A DNA stretch of 28,022 nucleotides from a virus, in IMG/VR virus record IMGVR_UViG_3300028843_000269, positions 1-28,022 of that record. One strand, written 5' to 3'. Positions 3,897 to 11,101 of the stretch are shown piece by piece (within the stretch, counting starts at the first letter, position 1; each line of letters begins with the position of its first letter). A model generated the notes under the pieces. It made no database searches, was not told the DNA's origin, and worked only from the letters and a program-made list of their open reading frames with translations. Made by a program: the position numbers and the translations under genes.

Positions 3897-4129
3897 TTAA
3901 TACCCCCATTCCTTTGACAACCCTGACAAACCACAACGTCACCTTTTTTAACAATCGAAACTGCCCACTTTCCGCAACGACAGCAACTCACCCAGCGCCA
4001 CCCCATAAATAAAAGCCGCAGCCCCCTAAAAAAATTAATAAAACACTCACAAATCCTGGCAACAAAAAGCCCAAAATAACCAACAAAAATATAATAGATT
4101 AAACGTCGCTTAGTTAAATCCTGTTTCAT
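3893..4129 (-). CDS. Small membrane-linked zinc-ribbon protein
   Basis: The 78-residue product starts at an ATG overlapping the stop of the LuxR-type gene (ATGA). Residues 10-25 and 29-45 are hydrophobic (IYYIFVGYFGLFVARI and INFFRGLRLLFMGW), so one or two membrane or membrane-surface helices are likely. Residues 49-71 carry two CxxC pairs (C49/C52 and C68/C71) separated by a beta-hairpin-like segment, a typical zinc ribbon. This resembles the Com-like zinc-ribbon layout of some phage translational regulators, but without a clear match. Overlaps at both ends (4126-4129 and 3893-3896) place it in a three-gene coupled block. Confidence 0.65.
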   Translation of the reverse strand: MKQDLTKRRLIYYIFVGYFGLFVARICECFINFFRGLRLLFMGWRWVSCCRCGKWAVSIVKKGDVVVCQGCQRNGGIK

Positions 4130-4548
4130 GCTAGGGTATCTTTTTTTAATATTCTTGCTGCCCCGATCCTTGGCAATCTCGATGCACGCGCTGGATTTAT
4201 ATCCTGAGCAAATAACTGGCTTGCAGATGACACAATAAACCCCATCAACAATAGATTTCTTGCCCCACGGCTAACCGCCTCAAACGTCAATACCCCTTCC
4301 TTACACGTAAGCGCGACTGCTTCAGTCACACTGGACACACCCAATTTAGACAACGCTACACCCAGCTGACTATCTATCGTTTTAACCGCAATAGATAAAC
4401 AATTCGCCGCTTTTTTTCTGGGCATCCCTACCGCAACCGCTTCAAACGCACGAACCTCAGCAGGCGTTAAACCCGCTGTTCCAGGCACTAGCATTGCTAT
4501 TGTTGCGTTATGAGGGTTATCCCCGATGTTATTGACTAAATTATTCAT
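4126..4548 (-). CDS. LuxR-type HTH regulator with C-terminal hydrophobic segment
   Basis: The frame is open from 4647, but the ATG at 4548 has GAGG eight bases upstream and gives 140 residues; the upstream extension crosses an inverted repeat and is unlikely to be coding. Residues 27-80 are a LuxR/GerE helix-turn-helix domain: LTPAEVRAFEAVAVGMPRKKAA, then the recognition helix SIAVKTIDSQLGVALSKLGV. No N-terminal sensor or receiver domain is present. Residues 98-114 (RNLLLMGFIVSSASQLF) are hydrophobic and could be a membrane helix or dimer interface. It sits just downstream of the Cro-like gene, so it is expressed early after induction. The 13-bp inverted repeat at 4627-4684, immediately upstream, is a candidate autoregulatory site. 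Confidence 0.75.
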   Translation of the reverse strand: MNNLVNNIGDNPHNATIAMLVPGTAGLTPAEVRAFEAVAVGMPRKKAANCLSIAVKTIDSQLGVALSKLGVSSVTEAVALTCKEGVLTFEAVSRGARNLLLMGFIVSSASQLFAQDINPARASRLPRIGAARILKKDTLA

Positions 4549-4626
4549 TAAACTAACCTCAACAATAAAAAAAATCCCCGCCCGAAAACGTGGGAATGGA
4601 CGTAAACAACGAGGTTGTTGTTTGGG

Positions 4627-4708: not shown

Positions 4709-4951
4709 TTAATTAATAACACTGCATTCTTCAGAATTATCTTCATTTAATGTTATTGGCTTTTTAAAATAATCAGGACGGATCAAACTACGATCAATTC
4801 CAAATTTTTCCTCGATCTGTATTGCGCGAAACGTAGGAAACTGATTATTAATTCGCCACTTACTAACAGCATTATCTGACACACCTAATGCACTCGCTAA
4901 CGCCTTTTGTGTGCCGCCTGCCAACTTTATTACATCCTGAAAAATACTCAT
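4709..4951 (-). CDS. Cro/YdaS-like DNA-binding protein
   Basis: The product is 80 residues from the ATG at 4951, or 86 from a GTG at 4969 that has no ribosome binding site and lies upstream of the predicted transcription start. Residues 8-35 (IKLAGGTQKALASALGVSDNAVSKW) are a helix-turn-helix of the Cro/YdaS type, in which the KLAGGTQKALA opening is characteristic. The C-terminal half is short and ends in an acidic tail, with no effector domain. It is divergent from the repressor gene at 5034 and heads the early operon, the position of lambda cro. The deduced -10 element puts the transcript's first base at the A of this ATG, so the mRNA is probably leaderless. It probably competes with the repressor for the operators at 4962-5039. 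Confidence 0.82.
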   Translation of the reverse strand: MSIFQDVIKLAGGTQKALASALGVSDNAVSKWRINNQFPTFRAIQIEEKFGIDRSLIRPDYFKKPITLNEDNSEECSVIN

Positions 4952-4957
4952 GCCTAT

Positions 4958-5039
4958 ATTCAACCACACGTTTAGTTATTTATCAACCGCTCGTTGCTTT
5001 TAATGCTTATTAATATAGTGCAAAATTAAACCTATGGTT
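4958..5039. promoter_or_regulatory. Right-operator-like cluster with divergent promoters
   Basis: Three 11-bp imperfect palindromes of the AACC-NNN-GGTT type are seen: AACCACACGTT (4962-4972), AACCGCTCGTT (4985-4995) and AACCTATGGTT (5029-5039). Start-to-start spacings are 23 and 44 bp. The minus-strand promoter for the Cro-like gene is TTGATA (4986-4981), a 17-bp spacer, then TTGAAT (4963-4958); each box overlaps an operator edge. The plus-strand repressor promoter has a good -10 (TATAGT, 5014-5019) but a poor -35, as expected for an activated PRM-like promoter. The third operator covers the repressor start codon and would allow autorepression. Confidence 0.7.
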
Positions 5040-5426
5040 GAAATATCAAAAATAATCAAATCACAGCTAAAAAAGAATTTGCTTGAGAAAAAATTGAAGC
5101 GCTCAGACTTAGCAGAATACACACAAGTAAGTGACCAAGCGGTTGGGAAGTGGGTAAAAGAGGGAAAAGTAAGTGTAGAAAACATACCAAAAGTAGCAAG
5201 CTTTCTTGGTATTCAAATAGCCGAATTAATGACAAACGAGATTGAGAAAATAAATTATAAAAATCTCAGTGAAACTTCAGGAAACTACAATATTGATGAC
5301 AAAGGCAACGAAAATACGAGGATTTTAATTGAGCTCATTAGTGTAACATCTGGATCGGGACAACTAACCGCCGCATCAATACAAACAATTACAGAATTGA
5401 TTAGACAGTTAGCACAGAAAAAATAA
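5034..5426 (+). CDS. Short CI-like repressor (XRE family)
   Basis: The product is 130 residues. Residues 12-60 are an XRE/HTH_3 domain (KRSDLAEYTQVSDQAVGKWVKEG, recognition helix about 34-43). The C-terminal 60 residues are polar, ending in a helix (ITELIRQLAQKK), and probably give oligomerisation. No S24/LexA-type peptidase signature is visible, so RecA-stimulated self-cleavage is unlikely and induction must work some other way. The ATG lies inside an operator copy and only about eight bases after the predicted transcript start, with no ribosome binding site, so translation is near-leaderless as for lambda cI from PRM. It is convergent with the gene at 5458-6264. Position and operators make it the lysogeny repressor with good confidence. 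Confidence 0.82.
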   Translation: MVEISKIIKSQLKKNLLEKKLKRSDLAEYTQVSDQAVGKWVKEGKVSVENIPKVASFLGIQIAELMTNEIEKINYKNLSETSGNYNIDDKGNENTRILIELISVTSGSGQLTAASIQTITELIRQLAQKK

Positions 5427-5457
5427 AGAAAAAGAGGCACTGCACCACTTAATTTTA

Positions 5458-6264
5458 TTACCAGACCAACCAAATTAATAAAACTAAAACTAGCCAGGCA
5501 AGCCAATTTACATTATTAGAGGCCTCCGACCCATAAGCAATATATTTATTGCTCATGGGTACATTCGCAGCCTTAGACCCCACCATAGACTCGACAGTAT
5601 TAATCTCGACTGCATTACTTAGTAGCGCACGCGTACTTTTGTAAGCAAGCGTCCCTTTGCTACCACCAAAACAACTAAACCCATTAGGAGAATCCCAATC
5701 TCCAAACCTAATAAGATCCTCCCCTTTATAACGACGCACGGACTTAATCACGCGCTTATCGCTTAATAACTGATCAGCCACCTTTTTGATAATATCATTG
5801 CCCGGGCCATCAATCTCCACATCTAAACGCCCATACACCATATTACGATAAACGCGAAAAACAAACCACGACAAAAGATCATCCTGCCTACCCTCTTGCA
5901 AAAGCTCTAACTGAATACAATTAAATAAGCGGCGCTTACCCGTATATTCAGAAAAATAAACATCAAAAAATCTGGCAAACTCCCTATGCCTTTCTTCAGC
6001 TGGATAATCGCCGTCAATCTCCAATGCGATAAGAGCTGATAAATCATCTTTACCCGCATTTTCAGGTATATAAATCCCTAGGTCATCAGCATAACTCAAC
6101 TGAGCATCTGTTGCGGGATCAGCCGGCATAGCGTTAACCTCCATAACCTCAGTTCCATCGTTTTCAGCCCTAACTCTAACGCAACTTTCATTAGCACCGT
6201 AATAGACCTTTCTTCTCTTTCTGCCTGTTTTTATACCCGTCCCTACAACTTCAAACTTTAACAA
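5458..6264 (-). CDS. Tail-anchored membrane protein of the immunity region
   Basis: The frame is open from an ATG at 6306, but AAGGAG followed seven bases later by TTG at 6264 marks the likely start, giving 268 residues. Residues 1-45 form a small beta-rich domain (FEVVGTGIKTGRKRRKVYYGA). A segment seen in other phage or prophage proteins, as I recall, follows at 50-80 (PATDAQLSYADDLGIYIPEN, then DDLS). The middle (about 85-240) is soluble and unrecognised. The last 17 residues (WLAWLVLVLLIWLVW) are a single membrane helix, so the protein is tail-anchored with its bulk in the cytoplasm. Its promoter lies in the 6332-6373 operator cluster, so it is probably controlled by the repressor. A role in superinfection exclusion or immunity fits the location but is only inference. 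Confidence 0.75.
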   Translation of the reverse strand: MLKFEVVGTGIKTGRKRRKVYYGANESCVRVRAENDGTEVMEVNAMPADPATDAQLSYADDLGIYIPENAGKDDLSALIALEIDGDYPAEERHREFARFFDVYFSEYTGKRRLFNCIQLELLQEGRQDDLLSWFVFRVYRNMVYGRLDVEIDGPGNDIIKKVADQLLSDKRVIKSVRRYKGEDLIRFGDWDSPNGFSCFGGSKGTLAYKSTRALLSNAVEINTVESMVGSKAANVPMSNKYIAYGSEASNNVNWLAWLVLVLLIWLVW

Positions 6265-6331
6265 AATACGACTCCTTACATTAAAACATCTTATTTTAAT
6301 TTTCACTATACACCAGCAATCGCCACTTTAA

Positions 6332-6373
6332 AATAAACCGTTAGTTGATTCTAAATACAACCTATGGTTTAAT
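6332..6373. promoter_or_regulatory. Left-operator-like cluster with back-to-back promoters
   Basis: Two operator copies, AACCGTTAGTT (6336-6346) and AACCTATGGTT (6359-6369), are 23 bp apart, the same spacing as in the other cluster; the second is identical in sequence to the copy at 5029-5039. A plus-strand promoter TTGATT (6345-6350), 17 bp, TTTAAT (6368-6373) drives the genes from 6418. A minus-strand promoter TTGTAT (6360-6355), 17 bp, TTTATT (6337-6332) drives the membrane protein. Each spacer or box overlaps an operator, so a bound repressor would shut both. Confidence 0.7.
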
Positions 6374-6417
6374 GATTGCAAATTAATTATATCTGCCACG
6401 CATAACCGGAGCCCCCC

Positions 6418-6615
6418 ATGACCCCAAAACCACAACCCCCCCAACAAAAATCAGACCAGATTTATCAAAAAGCACAACAAAGTGCTTTAGATTTTGGCCA
6501 TTCAGGTGTCAATAAATACATCTTCATGTGTGGATTTTTACAGCAAGAACTATGCATCGCATTTGAAAAAATTAAAACCTTAGAAAAATTAAACCAATCA
6601 TCAGTTACCCGCTAA
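6418..6615 (+). CDS. Hypothetical small protein, first gene of plus-strand operon
   Basis: The product is 65 residues, with GGAG six bases before the ATG. The N-terminus is proline- and glutamine-rich (TPKPQPPQQKSDQ); residues 20-60 are helical (QKAQQSALDF, then LQQELCIAFEKIKTLEKL). No family is recognised. It lies about 45 bases after the -10 box of the repressed plus-strand promoter, in the place lambda uses for PL-transcribed early genes, and would be made immediately on induction. Confidence 0.65.
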   Translation: MTPKPQPPQQKSDQIYQKAQQSALDFGHSGVNKYIFMCGFLQQELCIAFEKIKTLEKLNQSSVTR

Positions 6616-6634
6616 AACAACCTAATAAAACATC

Positions 6635-6793
6635 ATGACTATTACCCAAAACAAACTCATCAACGGCATGCATATTGTTAAAATACACCACAACAAATAC
6701 ACCACAACATGTGCCGATACCTCACGAAAAATAGCCTACAAAAAAGCCATGCATAGCATGCTACAAATCATTAAATTAACAGGGATACCCTAA
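6635..6793 (+). CDS. Hypothetical 52-residue protein
   Basis: The ATG at 6635 lies 19 bases after the previous stop. The product (MTITQNKLINGMHIVKIHHN, continuing with KYTTTCADTSRKIAYKKAMH) is basic and well behaved in composition: a possible beta-hairpin followed by a helix. There is no strong ribosome binding site, so coupling to the preceding gene is likely. No family is recognised. A strong hairpin begins seven bases after its stop. Confidence 0.5.
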   Translation: MTITQNKLINGMHIVKIHHNKYTTTCADTSRKIAYKKAMHSMLQIIKLTGIP

Positions 6794-6799
6794 GGTGGT

Positions 6800-6840
6800 G
6801 CAACGCCCAGCGGACGGTGGCGAGTAACATCCGCTGTTGC
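6800..6840 (+). other. Strong bulged stem-loop
   Basis: GCAAC (6800-6804) and AGCGGA (6809-6814) pair with TCCGCT (6830-6835) and GTTGC (6836-6840): an 11-bp stem with a four-base bulge and a 15-base loop. No T run follows, so it is not an ordinary terminator. A second hairpin (TGCCTC 6884-6889 with GAGGCA 6897-6902) lies downstream. Together they make the 6794-6919 gap a structured, non-coding stretch, possibly an RNA processing or regulatory element. Confidence 0.55.
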
Positions 6841-6919
6841 ATTTGGGATCCTCTACGACTTCATACTCAATGAGCAACCGTCATGCCTCACGACACGAGG
6901 CAATCACCGAGGTAAACAC

Positions 6920-6967
6920 ATGAAATTATTAGGAATCATTGGCGCACTACTAAGCGCAGGCGTCTAA
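6920..6967 (+). CDS. Very small hydrophobic ORF (15 residues)
   Basis: GAGG lies eight bases before the ATG, a good ribosome binding site for such a short frame. The peptide MKLLGIIGALLSAGV is hydrophobic throughout, like a membrane peptide or a broken signal sequence. The next ORF starts two bases after its stop. Either a real micropeptide, a leader peptide, or the remnant of a longer gene. Confidence 0.35.
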   Translation: MKLLGIIGALLSAGV

Positions 6968-6968
6968 G

Positions 6969-7052
6969 ATGCCAAAACAGCCTAGGTACTTTAATAAAGT
7001 AGGCGAACCAGGCATAAAGAAACGCAAAGCGCGTCGTAAAAACCGTTGTTAA
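6969..7052 (+). CDS. Very small, highly basic ORF (27 residues)
   Basis: The ATG is eight bases after CAGG and two bases after the preceding stop. Eleven of the 27 residues are Lys or Arg (GIKKRKARRKNRC at the end), which would bind nucleic acid if made. The spacing to both neighbours and the ribosome binding sites suggest a translated chain of tiny genes. It resembles small basic packaging-type peptides only in composition; no family can be assigned. Confidence 0.35.
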   Translation: MPKQPRYFNKVGEPGIKKRKARRKNRC

Positions 7053-7064
7053 TCAGGAGAAAAC

Positions 7065-7258
7065 ATGAAAATAGCCCCAGAAAACCCTGGCCTATCCAAC
7101 CGCACTCTAAATAGCTAAGTTGGAAAAAATAAGCTACGATTTTCTTTCCAGAAGAAAGCGGAAACCTTCTTCGCGAAGATCCACGCCAAACAACGCTACC
7201 TGACTTAAAAGCGGTAGAAAACAATCCACCCATAGATTTTAAACAAGCAACAGGATAA
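7065..7258 (+). pseudogene. Probable frameshifted small gene
   Basis: AGGAGA precedes the ATG at 7065 by about five bases, the best ribosome binding site of the region, yet the frame ends after 17 codons (MKIAPENPGLSNRTLNS). The two other frames then carry protein-like sequence in turn: KLEKISYDF at 7117-7143 and FPEESGNLLREDPRQTTLPD onwards at 7142-7255, ending in a stop at 7256-7258. Joined, these would give a protein of about 65 residues. I read this as one gene broken by two +1 shifts, though separate tiny ORFs are possible. Confidence 0.4.
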
Positions 7259-7262
7259 TAAA

Positions 7263-7368
7263 ATGCAAAAACAATAGGCAGAGCCCCTAAAATTACATTA
7301 CCAGACAGCAAAAAGCACTAAAAGACGTACAATTTCAGGCACAACAAATAATCGAGGTATATCTATGA
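7263..7368 (+). pseudogene. Probable frameshifted small gene before the transglycosylase
   Basis: The ATG at 7263 gives only MQKQ before a stop. If one A is added to the run at 7267-7271 and one to the run at 7310-7314, a single frame of 36 residues appears: TIGRAPKITLPDSKKALKDV, then QFQAQQIIEVYL. It ends in a TGA that overlaps the next gene's ATG (ATGA), as intact operon genes do. That overlap supports a formerly or actually functional gene, interrupted by two single-base losses in A runs (mutation, sequencing error or recoding). Confidence 0.45.
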
Positions 7369-7868
7369 TTACAAAATATGACGCATTGATCAAAGCTGCA
7401 CAGTCTACATACCTAAATGGTGTTGATTGGAGGCTGTTTAAAGCACAGCTAGCCCAAGAATCAGCATTAAATCCAATTGCCGTATCCTATGTAGGCGCAC
7501 AGGGAATAGCCCAATTTATGCCCCGTACATGGCAAGAGGTTAAAAACGATCTAGAGTACCCAAATATTGCAACCCCGTTTGACCCAGTTGTAGCAATACC
7601 AGCTGCAGCATATTATTTATCAAAACAGGCGTATAAATGGACATCAAAACGCGAAGAGGCTGACAGAATATGTCTAGCATTTGCGAGTTATAATGCAGGA
7701 TTTGGTAATATTTTAAAAGCACAAAAATATGCACATGGCGCAGTTGAATACTATCCGATTATTGAGCAACTGCACCGCGTGACTGGTCATAAAAACTCAC
7801 AGGAAACCATACAATACGTGCAGAATATTTTTAAAATATTTGGCGAATATCTGATCCAAGGTCGATAG
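7365..7868 (+). CDS. Lytic transglycosylase (SLT family)
   Basis: The product is 167 residues. It cleaves the MurNAc-GlcNAc bond of peptidoglycan with formation of an anhydro-sugar. The SLT motifs are complete: QESALNP with catalytic Glu32, GAQGIAQFMP (44-53) and ASYNAG (107-112). No signal peptide or membrane helix is seen, so export would need a holin or other route. GAGG lies seven bases before the ATG. It sits in the plus-strand operon under repressor control, with no holin next to it. It could be the phage endolysin displaced from its usual place, or a cell-entry or cell-wall-remodelling enzyme. The family call is firm, the role is not. Confidence 0.9.
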   Translation: MITKYDALIKAAQSTYLNGVDWRLFKAQLAQESALNPIAVSYVGAQGIAQFMPRTWQEVKNDLEYPNIATPFDPVVAIPAAAYYLSKQAYKWTSKREEADRICLAFASYNAGFGNILKAQKYAHGAVEYYPIIEQLHRVTGHKNSQETIQYVQNIFKIFGEYLIQGR

Positions 7869-7891
7869 AAAACAACAAAAGAAACCCAATA

Positions 7892-8275
7892 ATGCCTAAA
7901 CTAAATGAAGATGCACTTAAAAAAGTTATCAGCTACGACCCTTTTACTGGCGTTTTTATCTGGAAACTTCACCACCGAAAAAACAGCCTACTAGGCCAAA
8001 AAGCAGGCTCAATCAATACTTGTGGAGTGCGATATATCCACGTATTTGGGGAAAAATACCAGGCATCACGCCTGGCCATACTGCATATAACGGGCACCCT
8101 ACCCGATTATGCAGGGCATAAAGACAAAGACCCAGGCAACCTGAAATTTAATAACCTTTATGCCAGCGACACCCCAATAAAAACACGACATAATAACATA
8201 CAAAAAAAGACCCAGAAAAAACCAAATGTTGATCATTTAATATTGTTTTGTACCGGGCATAGTATTCAGAATTAA
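7892..8275 (+). CDS. HNH-endonuclease-like protein, possibly degenerate
   Basis: The product is 127 residues. The N-terminal half fits phage HNH/AP2-type endonucleases: YDPFTGVFIWK (15-25), AGSINTCGVRYIHV, then ASRLAILHITGTLPD (58-72). The active-site stretch GHKDKDPGNLKFNNL (75-89) lines up with the usual DHxNGxxxDNRxxNL, but the first Asp is Gly and the DNR triad is changed. The fold is therefore recognisable, while catalysis is doubtful. The last 30 residues are lysine-rich and lack the usual DNA-binding AP2 part. Free-standing HNH genes of this type are common as mobile genes in phages. Confidence 0.65.
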   Translation: MPKLNEDALKKVISYDPFTGVFIWKLHHRKNSLLGQKAGSINTCGVRYIHVFGEKYQASRLAILHITGTLPDYAGHKDKDPGNLKFNNLYASDTPIKTRHNNIQKKTQKKPNVDHLILFCTGHSIQN

Positions 8276-8294
8276 AAATAATAAATGTACGAAT

Positions 8295-8512
8295 ATGAGT
8301 GAAAATGAAATACAAAAATCAACACTTACATTTAACGAAAATGGACGAGCCATCATTGAAACAACTGATGGTGTAGAGATGTCTGTAGTAGAAATGACTT
8401 TCAGTGTGTCAATGAATTTGTTCACTTTCATAATGTCAGTTTTGAAGACCTACAATCTCTATGCTTAGGGCTAGCCACTGAGATTGAAAAATATAAAAAA
8501 CTAACCTTATAA
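8295..8512 (+). pseudogene. Small gene with a single frameshift
   Basis: From the ATG at 8295 the frame gives 57 residues, of which the first 33 look like protein (SENEIQKSTLTFNENGRAII) and the rest do not. Adding one A to the run at 8392-8394 joins the start to a better frame reading NDFQCVNEFVHFHNVSFEDL, then QSLCLGLATEIEKYKKLTL, ending at 8510-8512, for a total of 73 residues. I infer a small gene broken by one base loss. No family is recognised. If the shift is real, the product is truncated and inactive. Confidence 0.5.
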
Positions 8513-8560
8513 CCCATCTGCCCAGTAAAGGTGATTGTTATATTTTTTATAGGAATAATT

Positions 8561-8827
8561 ATGTGGCAATGCGACAAATGCAACGAATATAGATTTAACG
8601 ACAGCAAAATATGTCATTGCAAAGAATTTAACGTGATAGATCTGGACGGAGACAATTTTAAAATTAGAGATATGGATGATCAAGGTGCAGCTTTAAAATT
8701 TGCACAAGAATCTAATGAAAATAACGAATATTATTTAATGGATTCAAATGTAGAAATAAAAGTGAACGGTAAAAGTTTTTCAATTAGTGCTGAGCCAGAT
8801 GTTCATTATTCAGCGTCTGAAATATAA
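8561..8827 (+). CDS. Small protein with N-terminal zinc-finger motif
   Basis: The frame opens at a GTG at 8531, but AGGA six bases before the ATG at 8561 sets the start, giving 88 residues. MWQCDKCNEYRF and ICHCKEF form a CxxC and CxC set within the first 22 residues, a probable zinc site. The rest is acidic and beta-rich (VIDLDGDNFKIRDMDDQG, then NGKSFSISAEPDVHYSA). Similar short zinc-binding proteins are frequent in phage accessory regions. No specific function is assigned. Confidence 0.65.
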   Translation: MWQCDKCNEYRFNDSKICHCKEFNVIDLDGDNFKIRDMDDQGAALKFAQESNENNEYYLMDSNVEIKVNGKSFSISAEPDVHYSASEI

Positions 8828-8943
8828 CGCCCTGGTCAGCAGCTGCAGGCAGGGAAACAACCGAGATATTTAATAGCTCGAAATTTTAACAAACGACAAT
8901 CTATCCAAGAAACTGCGCGGCTTGCGGTCGCCTGGAGCAGATT

Positions 8944-9109
8944 GTTGGCAGGCAATTGAAAGGAACAGATTATGTTTTTTAAAATATTCTTAATGAATGT
9001 ATTAGTTATTTTTATAAATTCGAAATTAGGAAGAAAAAAACTTAACGCAATAGAGGTGCTTTTGATTACGTTATTTAACGCTACACTACTAAATATTTAG
9101 CCTGCCAAC
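8944..9109. repeat. 10-bp inverted repeats flanking a small membrane-protein gene
   Basis: GTTGGCAGGC (8944-8953) and GCCTGCCAAC (9100-9109) are perfect inverted copies that flank the 42-codon ORF at 8972-9100; the right copy begins on the last base of its stop codon. They could form a long-range stem in RNA or mark a transposable or recombining cassette. The upstream stretch 8828-8943 holds no gene I can support. Confidence 0.4.
8972..9100 (+). CDS. Small hydrophobic protein (42 residues)
   Basis: AAGGA lies about seven bases before the ATG. The product has two hydrophobic stretches (MFFKIFLMNVLVIFI and EVLLITLFNATLLNI) separated by a basic turn (NSKLGRKKLN), suggesting a two-helix membrane hairpin. 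This size and layout would suit a small membrane effector, a holin-like protein or a toxin-like peptide; none can be chosen from sequence. It is flanked by 10-bp inverted repeats. Confidence 0.5.
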   Translation: MFFKIFLMNVLVIFINSKLGRKKLNAIEVLLITLFNATLLNI

Positions 9110-9117
9110 GCCATAAT

Positions 9118-9146
9118 CAGGCGGACATGCTTTACCGTCTCGCCTG
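9118..9146 (+). other. GC-rich hairpin in intergenic region
   Basis: CAGGCG-GAC (9118-9126) pairs with GTC-t-CGCCTG (9137-9146), nine base pairs with one bulge and a ten-base loop, in AT-rich surroundings. GATTTTATT follows, so weak termination on the plus strand is possible. It lies between the small membrane ORF and the gene at 9185. Confidence 0.4.
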
Positions 9147-9184
9147 GATTTTATTGTTATGTTGCGACAAAAATAGGAATATCT

Positions 9185-9376
9185 ATGGATATAATCGAAT
9201 TAATAACAAATTTATCGGTTGAAATGAACAACGTTGCTAATGCAATGATAGAGCATTCGGATGATAATAAATGCAATGATAAACAAAACTGGATAGATCG
9301 CTCTAACGAACTATCAGGTGCTGCACAGATAGTGGAAGAGTGGGCCTTATGCGCCGCCAAAGATGAAGCAACATAA
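9185..9376 (+). CDS. Hypothetical small helical protein
   Basis: The product is 63 residues, with AGGA seven bases before the ATG. It is acidic and almost wholly helical (MDIIELITNLSVEMNNVANA, then AAQIVEEWALCAAKDEA). It may form a helical bundle or a dimer. No family is recognised. It is the last gene before the palindrome at 9380-9413 and the integration genes. Confidence 0.6.
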   Translation: MDIIELITNLSVEMNNVANAMIEHSDDNKCNDKQNWIDRSNELSGAAQIVEEWALCAAKDEAT

Positions 9377-9379
9377 CAC

Positions 9380-9413
9380 TGGTGATAGATGGAAAACTTT
9401 CCATATATCACCA
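9380..9413. promoter_or_regulatory. 34-bp near-perfect palindrome upstream of the excisionase gene
   Basis: TGGTGATA at 9380-9387 mirrors TATCACCA at 9406-9413, and ATGGAAA at 9389-9395 mirrors TTTCCAT at 9398-9404, with a single mismatch and a two-base centre. There is no T run after it. TGGAAAACT is repeated directly at 9390-9398 and 9431-9439. It could stop operon transcripts from entering xis-int, or bind a regulator such as the excisionase. Confidence 0.5.
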
Positions 9414-9506
9414 TATTACAACGCAAAAAGTGGAAAACTCGATTTTTATAGAAAAATATTATAACCTATAAAAATGAACCCTGAAGTATTGAAAAAGGTG
9501 ATATAA

Positions 9507-9713
9507 ATGACAGCACAGGCACTGGCTTTGCCAAGATGGGTAAAGCCAAGAATTATTGCTGCAGTATTCGGATACACAGAGGATGCAATAGCAAAAAAGA
9601 GACAGCGTGGGATCTGGCTTGAGGGAAAAATATGGAGAAAAGCGCCAGATAACACTATCATGTATTGTCCTCAAGAGATTGATATCTGGGTTGAAAATGG
9701 CAGTCACAACTAG
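9507..9713 (+). CDS. xis: Excisionase-like protein (DUF1233 type)
   Basis: The product is 68 residues. The pattern LPRWVKPRIIAAVFGYTEDA, then IAKKRQRGIWLEGKIWRKAPD, with a final IDIWVE, fits the putative phage excisionase family DUF1233 as I know it: a small MerR-like winged helix that bends DNA and directs the integrase to excise. AAGGTG lies six bases before the ATG. The 3' end overlaps the integrase start by 17 bases in another frame, so both are made together. The family assignment is from motif memory; the position directly before the integrase gene makes it more secure. Confidence 0.82.
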   Translation: MTAQALALPRWVKPRIIAAVFGYTEDAIAKKRQRGIWLEGKIWRKAPDNTIMYCPQEIDIWVENGSHN

Positions 9714-10929
9714 AACTGGAAAAACAAAAAAAACTCTAACAATAGATTTCTCTTATAGAGGCATCCGGTGCAGAGAATCACTAAAAGGGCTTGTTGTTAA
9801 TAAAGCAAATCGTAAATTTGCAGAGCGAAAATTGGCAGTTATTGAACTTGAAATAACATTAGGAACTTTTAATTATGCTAATCACTTTCCTGACTCAAAA
9901 AGAGCAATTTTACTTGGCATAACTAAAGTTAAAGACAAGCTGCTTGGTGATGCCGTAGATGAATGGCTTGCAATCCAGGGAACAAAAATAAGCCACTCGA
10001 CGATGATTAACTATAAATCAAAAGTTAAAACTTATATTAAGCCTGCATTTGCTGTACAGCCTATGTCTCAAATTACGCAATCAGCCATCGAAACATGGAT
10101 AGCTGTTGATCTGGCGCATTTAAAAAATAAAACAATAAATGAGGCACTTATTATCATGAGAGCCATATTTAAAACTGCAAAAGCAGACAAAATAATACCT
10201 GATTCCCCTTTGGAATTTATTGATAATTTAAAAGTAGTGACAGATGAACCAGACCCTTTTACAAAAGACGAAATAAATAGAATCCTATCAACTCCAACTA
10301 ATAGGATTCAGGAAATTAACATGATTGAGTTTAACTTTTGGAGCGGCTTAAGATTATCAGAATTAATTGCTTTAGGGTGGGATGATATAGATCAAATCAA
10401 CTGGACTGCAAAAATTCACTTGGCAAAAGTGAATGGAAAGTTCAAAAAAACAAAAACAGAAAGAGCAGAAAGAACAATAGAATTACTTAAGCCTGCGATT
10501 GATGCAATTAAAAAACAAATATCATTCACCTACATGTTTCCATCTATAAAAATTGAAGTGACTCAGCGAGACATAAAGACTGTAAAAATAATTGACTGGA
10601 GGCCTGTTTTTTTAAATTCAAATACTCAAGAGCCTCATGCAAGTGATATTGCTATTCGCACTCGCTTTTGGACTGCTCATTTAAAAAGAGCAAAAGTCAG
10701 ATATAGAGCACCCAAAAACACCAGGCATACATACGCGAGTCAATTACTGTCCACTGGGACTATTTCTAAGGACTGGATAGCCAAACAGATGGGCCACACC
10801 TCAACAAAGATGATCGATAAGCATTATGCAAAATGGATCCCTGAAGATGCCCCTCCAATGGCTAAAATGGCAAATAAAGCACTTGGTTTTCTTGAACAAT
10901 CCGTCACAAATGCGTCACAAAAAAAATAA
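9697..10929 (+). CDS. int: Tyrosine-type phage integrase
   Basis: The frame opens at 9607, but the ATG at 9697 (410 residues) begins a normal N-terminus, while the 30 upstream codons are out-of-frame xis sequence. Residues 15-68 form the arm-binding domain of the DUF3596 type (SYRGIRCRE, ERKLAVIELEI, GTFNYANHFPDS). The core-binding domain spans about 84-180. The catalytic domain has Arg219 (SGLRLSEL), Arg343 (KNTRHTYAS), His367 (MGHTS) and Tyr377 (KHYAKW). The usual first His of the HxxR box is Lys340, a variation known in relatives. It integrates the phage at a tRNA-Ser gene, judging by the core sequence 36 bases downstream. Its last codons contain one copy of the arm-type repeat. Confidence 0.95.
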   Translation: MAVTTRTGKTKKTLTIDFSYRGIRCRESLKGLVVNKANRKFAERKLAVIELEITLGTFNYANHFPDSKRAILLGITKVKDKLLGDAVDEWLAIQGTKISHSTMINYKSKVKTYIKPAFAVQPMSQITQSAIETWIAVDLAHLKNKTINEALIIMRAIFKTAKADKIIPDSPLEFIDNLKVVTDEPDPFTKDEINRILSTPTNRIQEINMIEFNFWSGLRLSELIALGWDDIDQINWTAKIHLAKVNGKFKKTKTERAERTIELLKPAIDAIKKQISFTYMFPSIKIEVTQRDIKTVKIIDWRPVFLNSNTQEPHASDIAIRTRFWTAHLKRAKVRYRAPKNTRHTYASQLLSTGTISKDWIAKQMGHTSTKMIDKHYAKWIPEDAPPMAKMANKALGFLEQSVTNASQKK

Positions 10930-11101
10930 TAAAAATAAATATATCCATTATATCAATTGCTTAAATGGCGGAGAGCAAGGGATTCGAACCTATGCTATTA
11001 TAGCGCCCGTCTTATTTAGTCTGCAATAGTCGCAATATGCTGATAATACTAATTGACTATTATGGACTAAAAAGGACTTTGGTTCGTCACAAATGCGTCA
11101 C
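10902..11101. other. Phage attachment site attP with tRNA-Ser core
   Basis: Positions 10966-10990, read on the minus strand, are the last 25 nt of a tRNA gene: T-loop TTCGAAT, T-stem 3' strand CCCTT, acceptor GCTCTCC, discriminator G, then CCA. The G discriminator and GGAGAGC-type acceptor fit tRNA-Ser. Upstream of the core the T-stem no longer pairs, so this is a fragment and not a gene. CGTCACAAATGCGTCAC occurs at 10902-10918 and again at 11085-11101, each with two CGTCAC boxes 11 bp apart, and these are likely integrase arm sites. TAGTC at 11017 and 11027 faces GACTA at 11055 and 11065, all with 10-bp spacing. The 10930-11268 gap holds no gene. Confidence 0.85.

Follow-up and report, generated by a model that had tools for sequence, protein, structure and literature searches.

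What kind of genetic switch is encoded by five short palindromic sites that lie in two clusters in a phage genome, and how closely does it follow the OR and OL regions of lambda? In the window, which is the entire 28,022-base virus record, the sites flank a putative repressor gene (Table 1), and we consider it very probable that a temperate phage has its immunity region here, with a short CI and a divergent Cro acting on five operators of the AACC-NNN-GGTT type. The sites, their spacing, the gene layout and their conservation in other phages are read directly from the DNA; the assignment of the two proteins to these sites is our proposal, and the layout, the relatives and an independently annotated promoter in the Acinetobacter phage vB_AbaS_TRS1 lend strong support to the OR/OL-type reading.

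The gene order, cro, OR, cI, a gene in the place of rex, OL and int, is that of lambda. The cro-like gene heads a leftward early operon which continues with a LuxR-type regulator, small ORFs, a putative replication initiator with a DnaT-like domain, and DnaB. The regulator, a small LuxR-type HTH protein (GerE; PHROG 3282; positions 4126-4557, minus strand), occupies the place of lambda cII downstream of cro. The CI-like protein matched HTH families only in Pfam and PHROG, where no S24/LexA-like domain for autocleavage and oligomerisation was found, and it had no sequence match in the PDB. No N-like gene was recognised in the window. Directly after int, at 10968-10990, lies a sequence resembling the 3′ end of a tRNA gene, ggcggagagcaagggattcgaacc, which is probably attP.

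Table 1. Features of the putative immunity region and of the adjoining operon, in window coordinates.
Feature	Position	Strand	Sequence or match	Remark
cro-like gene, 80 aa	4709..4951	-	Pfam P22_Cro, YdaS_toxin, HTH_3	sequence match to solved Cro proteins XPH1, 3bd1
PR (predicted)	4958..4986	-	TTGATA-17-TTGAAT, 9/12	exact offset match to annotated TRS1 promoter
OR1	4962..4972	.	AACCACACGTT	overlaps PR spacer and -10; offset kept in relatives
OR2	4985..4995	.	AACCGCTCGTT	overlaps PR -35; offset kept in relatives
PRM -10 candidates	5014..5026	+	CAAAAT 5021-5026 or TATAGT 5014-5019	no good -35
OR3	5029..5039	.	AACCTATGGTT	cI start codon inside
cI-like repressor, 130 aa	5034..5426	+	Pfam HTH_26, HTH_3; PHROG repressors	N-terminal HTH
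282-aa gene in lambda rex place	5458..6306	-	PHROG 20233	unknown function
Candidate promoter of the 282-aa gene	6305..6332	-	TTTAAA-16-TATAGT, 9/12	
OL site	6336..6346	.	AACCGTTAGTT	overlaps PL -35
PL (predicted)	6345..6373	+	TTGATT-17-TTTAAT, 9/12	same geometry in OL pairs at other loci
OL site	6359..6369	.	AACCTATGGTT	identical to OR3; overlaps PL -10
PL operon	6418..10929	+		65-aa ORF first, then lysozyme-like transglycosylase, ORF 9507-9713, integrase
Small ORF in xis place	9507-9713	+		conserved beside related integrases
Tyrosine integrase	9607-10929	+		ends PL operon

A preliminary description of this DNA had reported five sites sharing an 11-bp palindromic core, with start-to-start spacings of 23 and 44 bp in the left cluster and 23 bp in the right one. 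All five sites and their spacings were found as described, but the shared core needs to be qualified. The full AACC-NNN-GGTT is present only at OR3 and at the OL site at 6359, as the same 11-mer, which has no further copy in the record, whereas the other three sites are of the form AACC-N4-GTT, one mismatch away from the palindrome.

The promoters are embedded in these sites. At both PR and PL, a -35 hexamer TTGAnn lies in one operator and a -10 hexamer, TTTAAT or TTGAAT, in the next. Indeed, the GTT right half of each operator begins a promoter hexamer, and the distance between the -35 and the -10 hexamers (6+17) accounts for the 23-bp spacing of the operators. The promoter that the depositors of TRS1 annotated has, base for base, the same position relative to its sites as 4986-4958 in the window. 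In almost every locus examined, the PR and PL hexamers keep their offsets from the operators; in the OL pairs of nine other loci, TTGnnn is found at these offsets in all and TTTAAT in most, and three OL pairs are spaced by 24 bp, with an 18-bp promoter spacer. Among the three promoters initially proposed, each with a 17-bp spacer and a common geometry, 4986-4958 and 6345-6373 are thus backed by relatives, while the third is not (see below). The PR -10 of the window is weaker than in most relatives.

The transcription start of PR is predicted to fall at the cro ATG, about position 4951, which would make the cro message leaderless. For PRM, no convincing -35 could be recognised. The -10 candidate CAAAAT, whose offset is conserved in relatives as GATAAT or GAAAAT, would start the cI message at or next to its ATG, at about 5033, and would place the centre of OR2 near -43 and that of OR3 near +1. 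With TATAGT instead, the start would be at about 5026 and the cI leader 7-8 bases long. In PY54, mapping has shown a cro message that lacks a leader (PMC4488713).

These positions suggest how the switch could work. CI and Cro would bind OR1 to OR3 and the two OL sites. Since the operator halves begin the promoter hexamers, a repressor dimer on either operator of PR or PL would block RNA polymerase. The centre of OR2, about 43 bp upstream of the presumed PRM start, corresponds roughly to the position from which the CI of lambda activates cI, and the CI of the window may do the same. OR3 covers the cI start codon as well as this presumed start; from there, Cro, or CI in excess, would shut cI off. 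Both the cro and the cI messages would be leaderless, and looping between OR and OL over about 1.35 kb is possible.

The recognition helices are consistent with such an assignment. An alignment of six CI proteins, taken from loci that carry AACC-GGTT sites, shows A36, K39 and W40 of the recognition helix to be invariant. The helix of the window Cro, VSDNAVSKW, is identical to that of the CI of another locus (L048), which adjoins AACC-GGTT sites, and resembles that of the window CI, VSDQAVGKW. This correlation supports AACC-GGTT as the probable target of both proteins in the window.

Does Cro nevertheless compete with CI at every site? N15 and phiKO2 have three OR and two OL operators and a repressor devoid of autocleavage motifs (PMC4997575), and share this operator number and this type of repressor with the window. 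In phiKO2, CI was measured to bind all five operators and Cro only OR3 (PMC4997575), and the Cro of PY54, another phage of similar layout, likewise binds OR3 only (PMC4488713); competition at all five sites of the window should therefore not be assumed. In the resulting alternative, CI would occupy all five sites and Cro only OR3, which is one of the two perfect palindromes among the window operators. However, the other perfect palindrome sits in OL, and the Cro and CI helices are similar, and we regard this alternative as rather unlikely.

A second alternative concerns the right cluster and the gene in the place of rex. The 282-aa protein has a very hydrophobic C-terminal helix and matches a lone gene in the Faecalibacterium phage FP_Lagaffe; an alternative TTG start at 6264, with AAGGAG upstream, would give 268 aa, and its single-sequence fold was unusable (mean pLDDT 39). 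It looks like a moron or an exclusion-type gene. In another locus (L052:2458-3594, plus strand), the corresponding position between OL and cI is taken by a 378-aa acyltransferase-like gene that diverges from PL, and this points to a cargo slot at that position. The right cluster could be a divergent switch, at which CI would repress PL and at the same time activate the 282-aa gene from 6332-6305 (minus strand), making it rex-like in the lysogen. Relative to this promoter, whose start is predicted at about 6298, the centre of the 6336 site would fall near -43, as proposed for OR2 and PRM, and the acyltransferase-like gene has the same divergent place. However, promoter-like matches in that stretch are not in excess (7 found, 11.1 expected), so that 6332-6305 can only be taken as a lead, and we hold activation from OL to be doubtful.

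As a lead, it is still a better candidate for the 282-aa gene than the additional divergent promoter initially placed inside the OL sites, at 6360-6332 (minus strand), which would be repressed together with PL. This pair, TTGTAT-17-TTTATT, does combine hexamer-like sequences with a 17-bp spacer, but it scores just 7/12. Across loci, hexamer scores on the opposite strand are 4-8 versus 6-10 in the lytic direction, as the palindromes alone predict, and 6360-6332 is therefore probably the mere reverse face of the palindromic sites. We consider this version improbable and have set it aside.

How specific is the motif to these regions? AACC-N4-GTT-type sites are found 10 times in the whole window versus 3.1 expected from 1000 first-order Markov simulations. 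The two intergenic regions (4952-5039 and 6307-6417) hold five of them, against 0.015 expected and a simulation maximum of 1, these intervals having been chosen when the finding was already known; the five other copies (1679, 4470, 8220, 11625 and 19763) are about the number expected by chance. The enrichment in these two intergenic regions was thus borne out by the scan of the whole phage.

The sites, their spacing and the promoter geometry also recur in other phages, as a genuine operator system had been expected to do. A DNA pattern built from the two 23-bp pairs matched 34 viral stretches, many of which have divergent HTH genes next to two or three sites. The exact three-site pattern (23+44 bp) was found in 71 viral stretches versus 4 for a control pattern of identical spacing built on a CAA-N5-TTG core, and in most of the 71 a CI-type gene starts at or just after site 3. 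These stretches are not independent, since more than 50 of the 71 belong to a single Acinetobacter-type lineage, whose CI is long and LexA-like. Four others (L071, L074, L100 and L102) carry other repressors and only a looser AAC-N5-GTT core at the 23+44 spacing, and in them site 3 contains the ATG of the repressor-like gene, precisely the arrangement seen in the window. The start codons of both cro and cI in these four loci are at the predicted transcription starts; the PR of L100, TTGACA-17-TTTAAT, is at the upper end of the group. The remaining three-site stretches, most of which lack a repressor gene at site 3, look like chance matches or repeats.

The pair pattern was found in 30 of 30 records, which had been selected for carrying it, and a reversed control pattern in 2 of these 30. 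A second pair lies 1.1-3.6 kb away, beyond cI, in nine loci (L022, L023, L030, L034, L045, L048, L052, L061 and L126). The 44-bp spacing is not universal for the motif, as L057 has spacings of 23 and 25, and a class-wide genome scan with the three-site pattern gave 0 matches in 369 genomes. As motif and spacing recur in many phages, the switch looks real. Chance clustering of a short AT-rich motif, which the five copies elsewhere and the choice of the finding after looking might suggest, is contradicted by the intergenic count and by the control scan with its repressor genes at the sites, and was set aside as having a negligible probability.

Searches of viral contigs, genomes and phages with CI, Cro, the replication protein and the 282-aa protein revealed no close relative of this phage, the sole exception being weak matches of the 282-aa protein to Faecalibacterium phages. 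The integrase relatives (L003-L010) are mostly from Oceanospirillales, a hint at the host group; their loci hold no CI of the window kind, and their best Cro is 38% identical. Two of them (L003 and L004) end next to a tRNA-Ser gene. In L015, a Synechococcus phage whose capsid gene is similar, only DnaB matched among the early and lysogeny proteins compared.

Among the individual loci, the IMG/VR contig L126 shares with the window a short CI (126 aa), a divergent Cro, an OR pair (4596/4619), an OL pair (5729/5753) and embedded promoters. It differs by an OL spacing of 24 and by having no third OR site with the motif. The TRS1 lineage shares the operator motif, the 23+44 spacing of OR and the PR offsets. 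Its CI, however, is 230-248 aa long with a LexA-like domain, compared with 130 aa in the window, its cI ATG lies 18-25 bases past the start of OR3, and its cro leader is about 40 bases long; no second operator pair was found in the records of this lineage that were scanned.

Compared with lambda (NC_001416), the window shows the same divergent pair of cI and cro separated by operators, the same PR under two operators, and, beyond cI, a second cluster of related operators at PL, followed by the int operon, with a gene in the place of rex. Lambda has six 17-bp sites, with three OR sites evenly spaced at 24 and 23 bp and three OL sites spaced at 24 and 20 bp, whereas the window has five AACC-GGTT sites of 11-15 bp, with OR spacings of 23 and 44 bp and two OL sites 23 bp apart. 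Lambda CI is cleavable and of the 236-aa class; the 130-aa CI of the window has no recognisable LexA-like (S24) domain. In the window, unlike lambda, OR3 covers the cI start codon and the gene in the rex place is on the strand opposite cI. To say that the layout reproduces lambda OR and OL would therefore go too far: the number of OL sites, the 44 bp between OR2 and OR3, the position of OR3 and the type of CI show that this is not a copy of lambda.

The immB regions of N15 and phiKO2 match the window in the number of operators, but those of N15, phiKO2 and PY54 are 16 bp long, of the form TA-N10-TA, and unrelated in sequence. In addition, the N15 OR spans 65 bp with sites not at 23+44, and OL in these three phages lies upstream of repA, whereas in the window it lies upstream of the int operon.

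The lambda-type architecture is already known; what is new here is the operator code, the position of OR3 and the short CI. No earlier description of an AACC-GGTT operator in Acinetobacter phages was found in the open-access literature. A similar half-site may have been predicted by Hall et al. (2005, J Mol Biol 350:667), who, as cited in PMC4488713, related Cro helices to OR half-sites. Tentatively, and with somewhat less than even confidence, we propose a widespread operator code, approximately TCAACC-NNN-GGTTGA, recognised by repressors whose helix has the form xA[VP]xKW; its promoter hexamers lie inside the operators, the spacing is set by sigma-70 geometry and OR3 lies over the cI start, with leaderless cI and cro messages in the window phage and a few others. 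This code would be common to very different repressors, including short ones that are not cleavable like lambda CI and would be induced otherwise.

In conclusion, the immunity region is now testable in a phage for which no close relative was found, and the operator motif and its spacing rule pick out immunity regions in otherwise unannotated phages. Since the motif is common to many CI/Cro lineages, cross-immunity between such phages becomes predictable, and the choice of operator by the recognition helix becomes testable.
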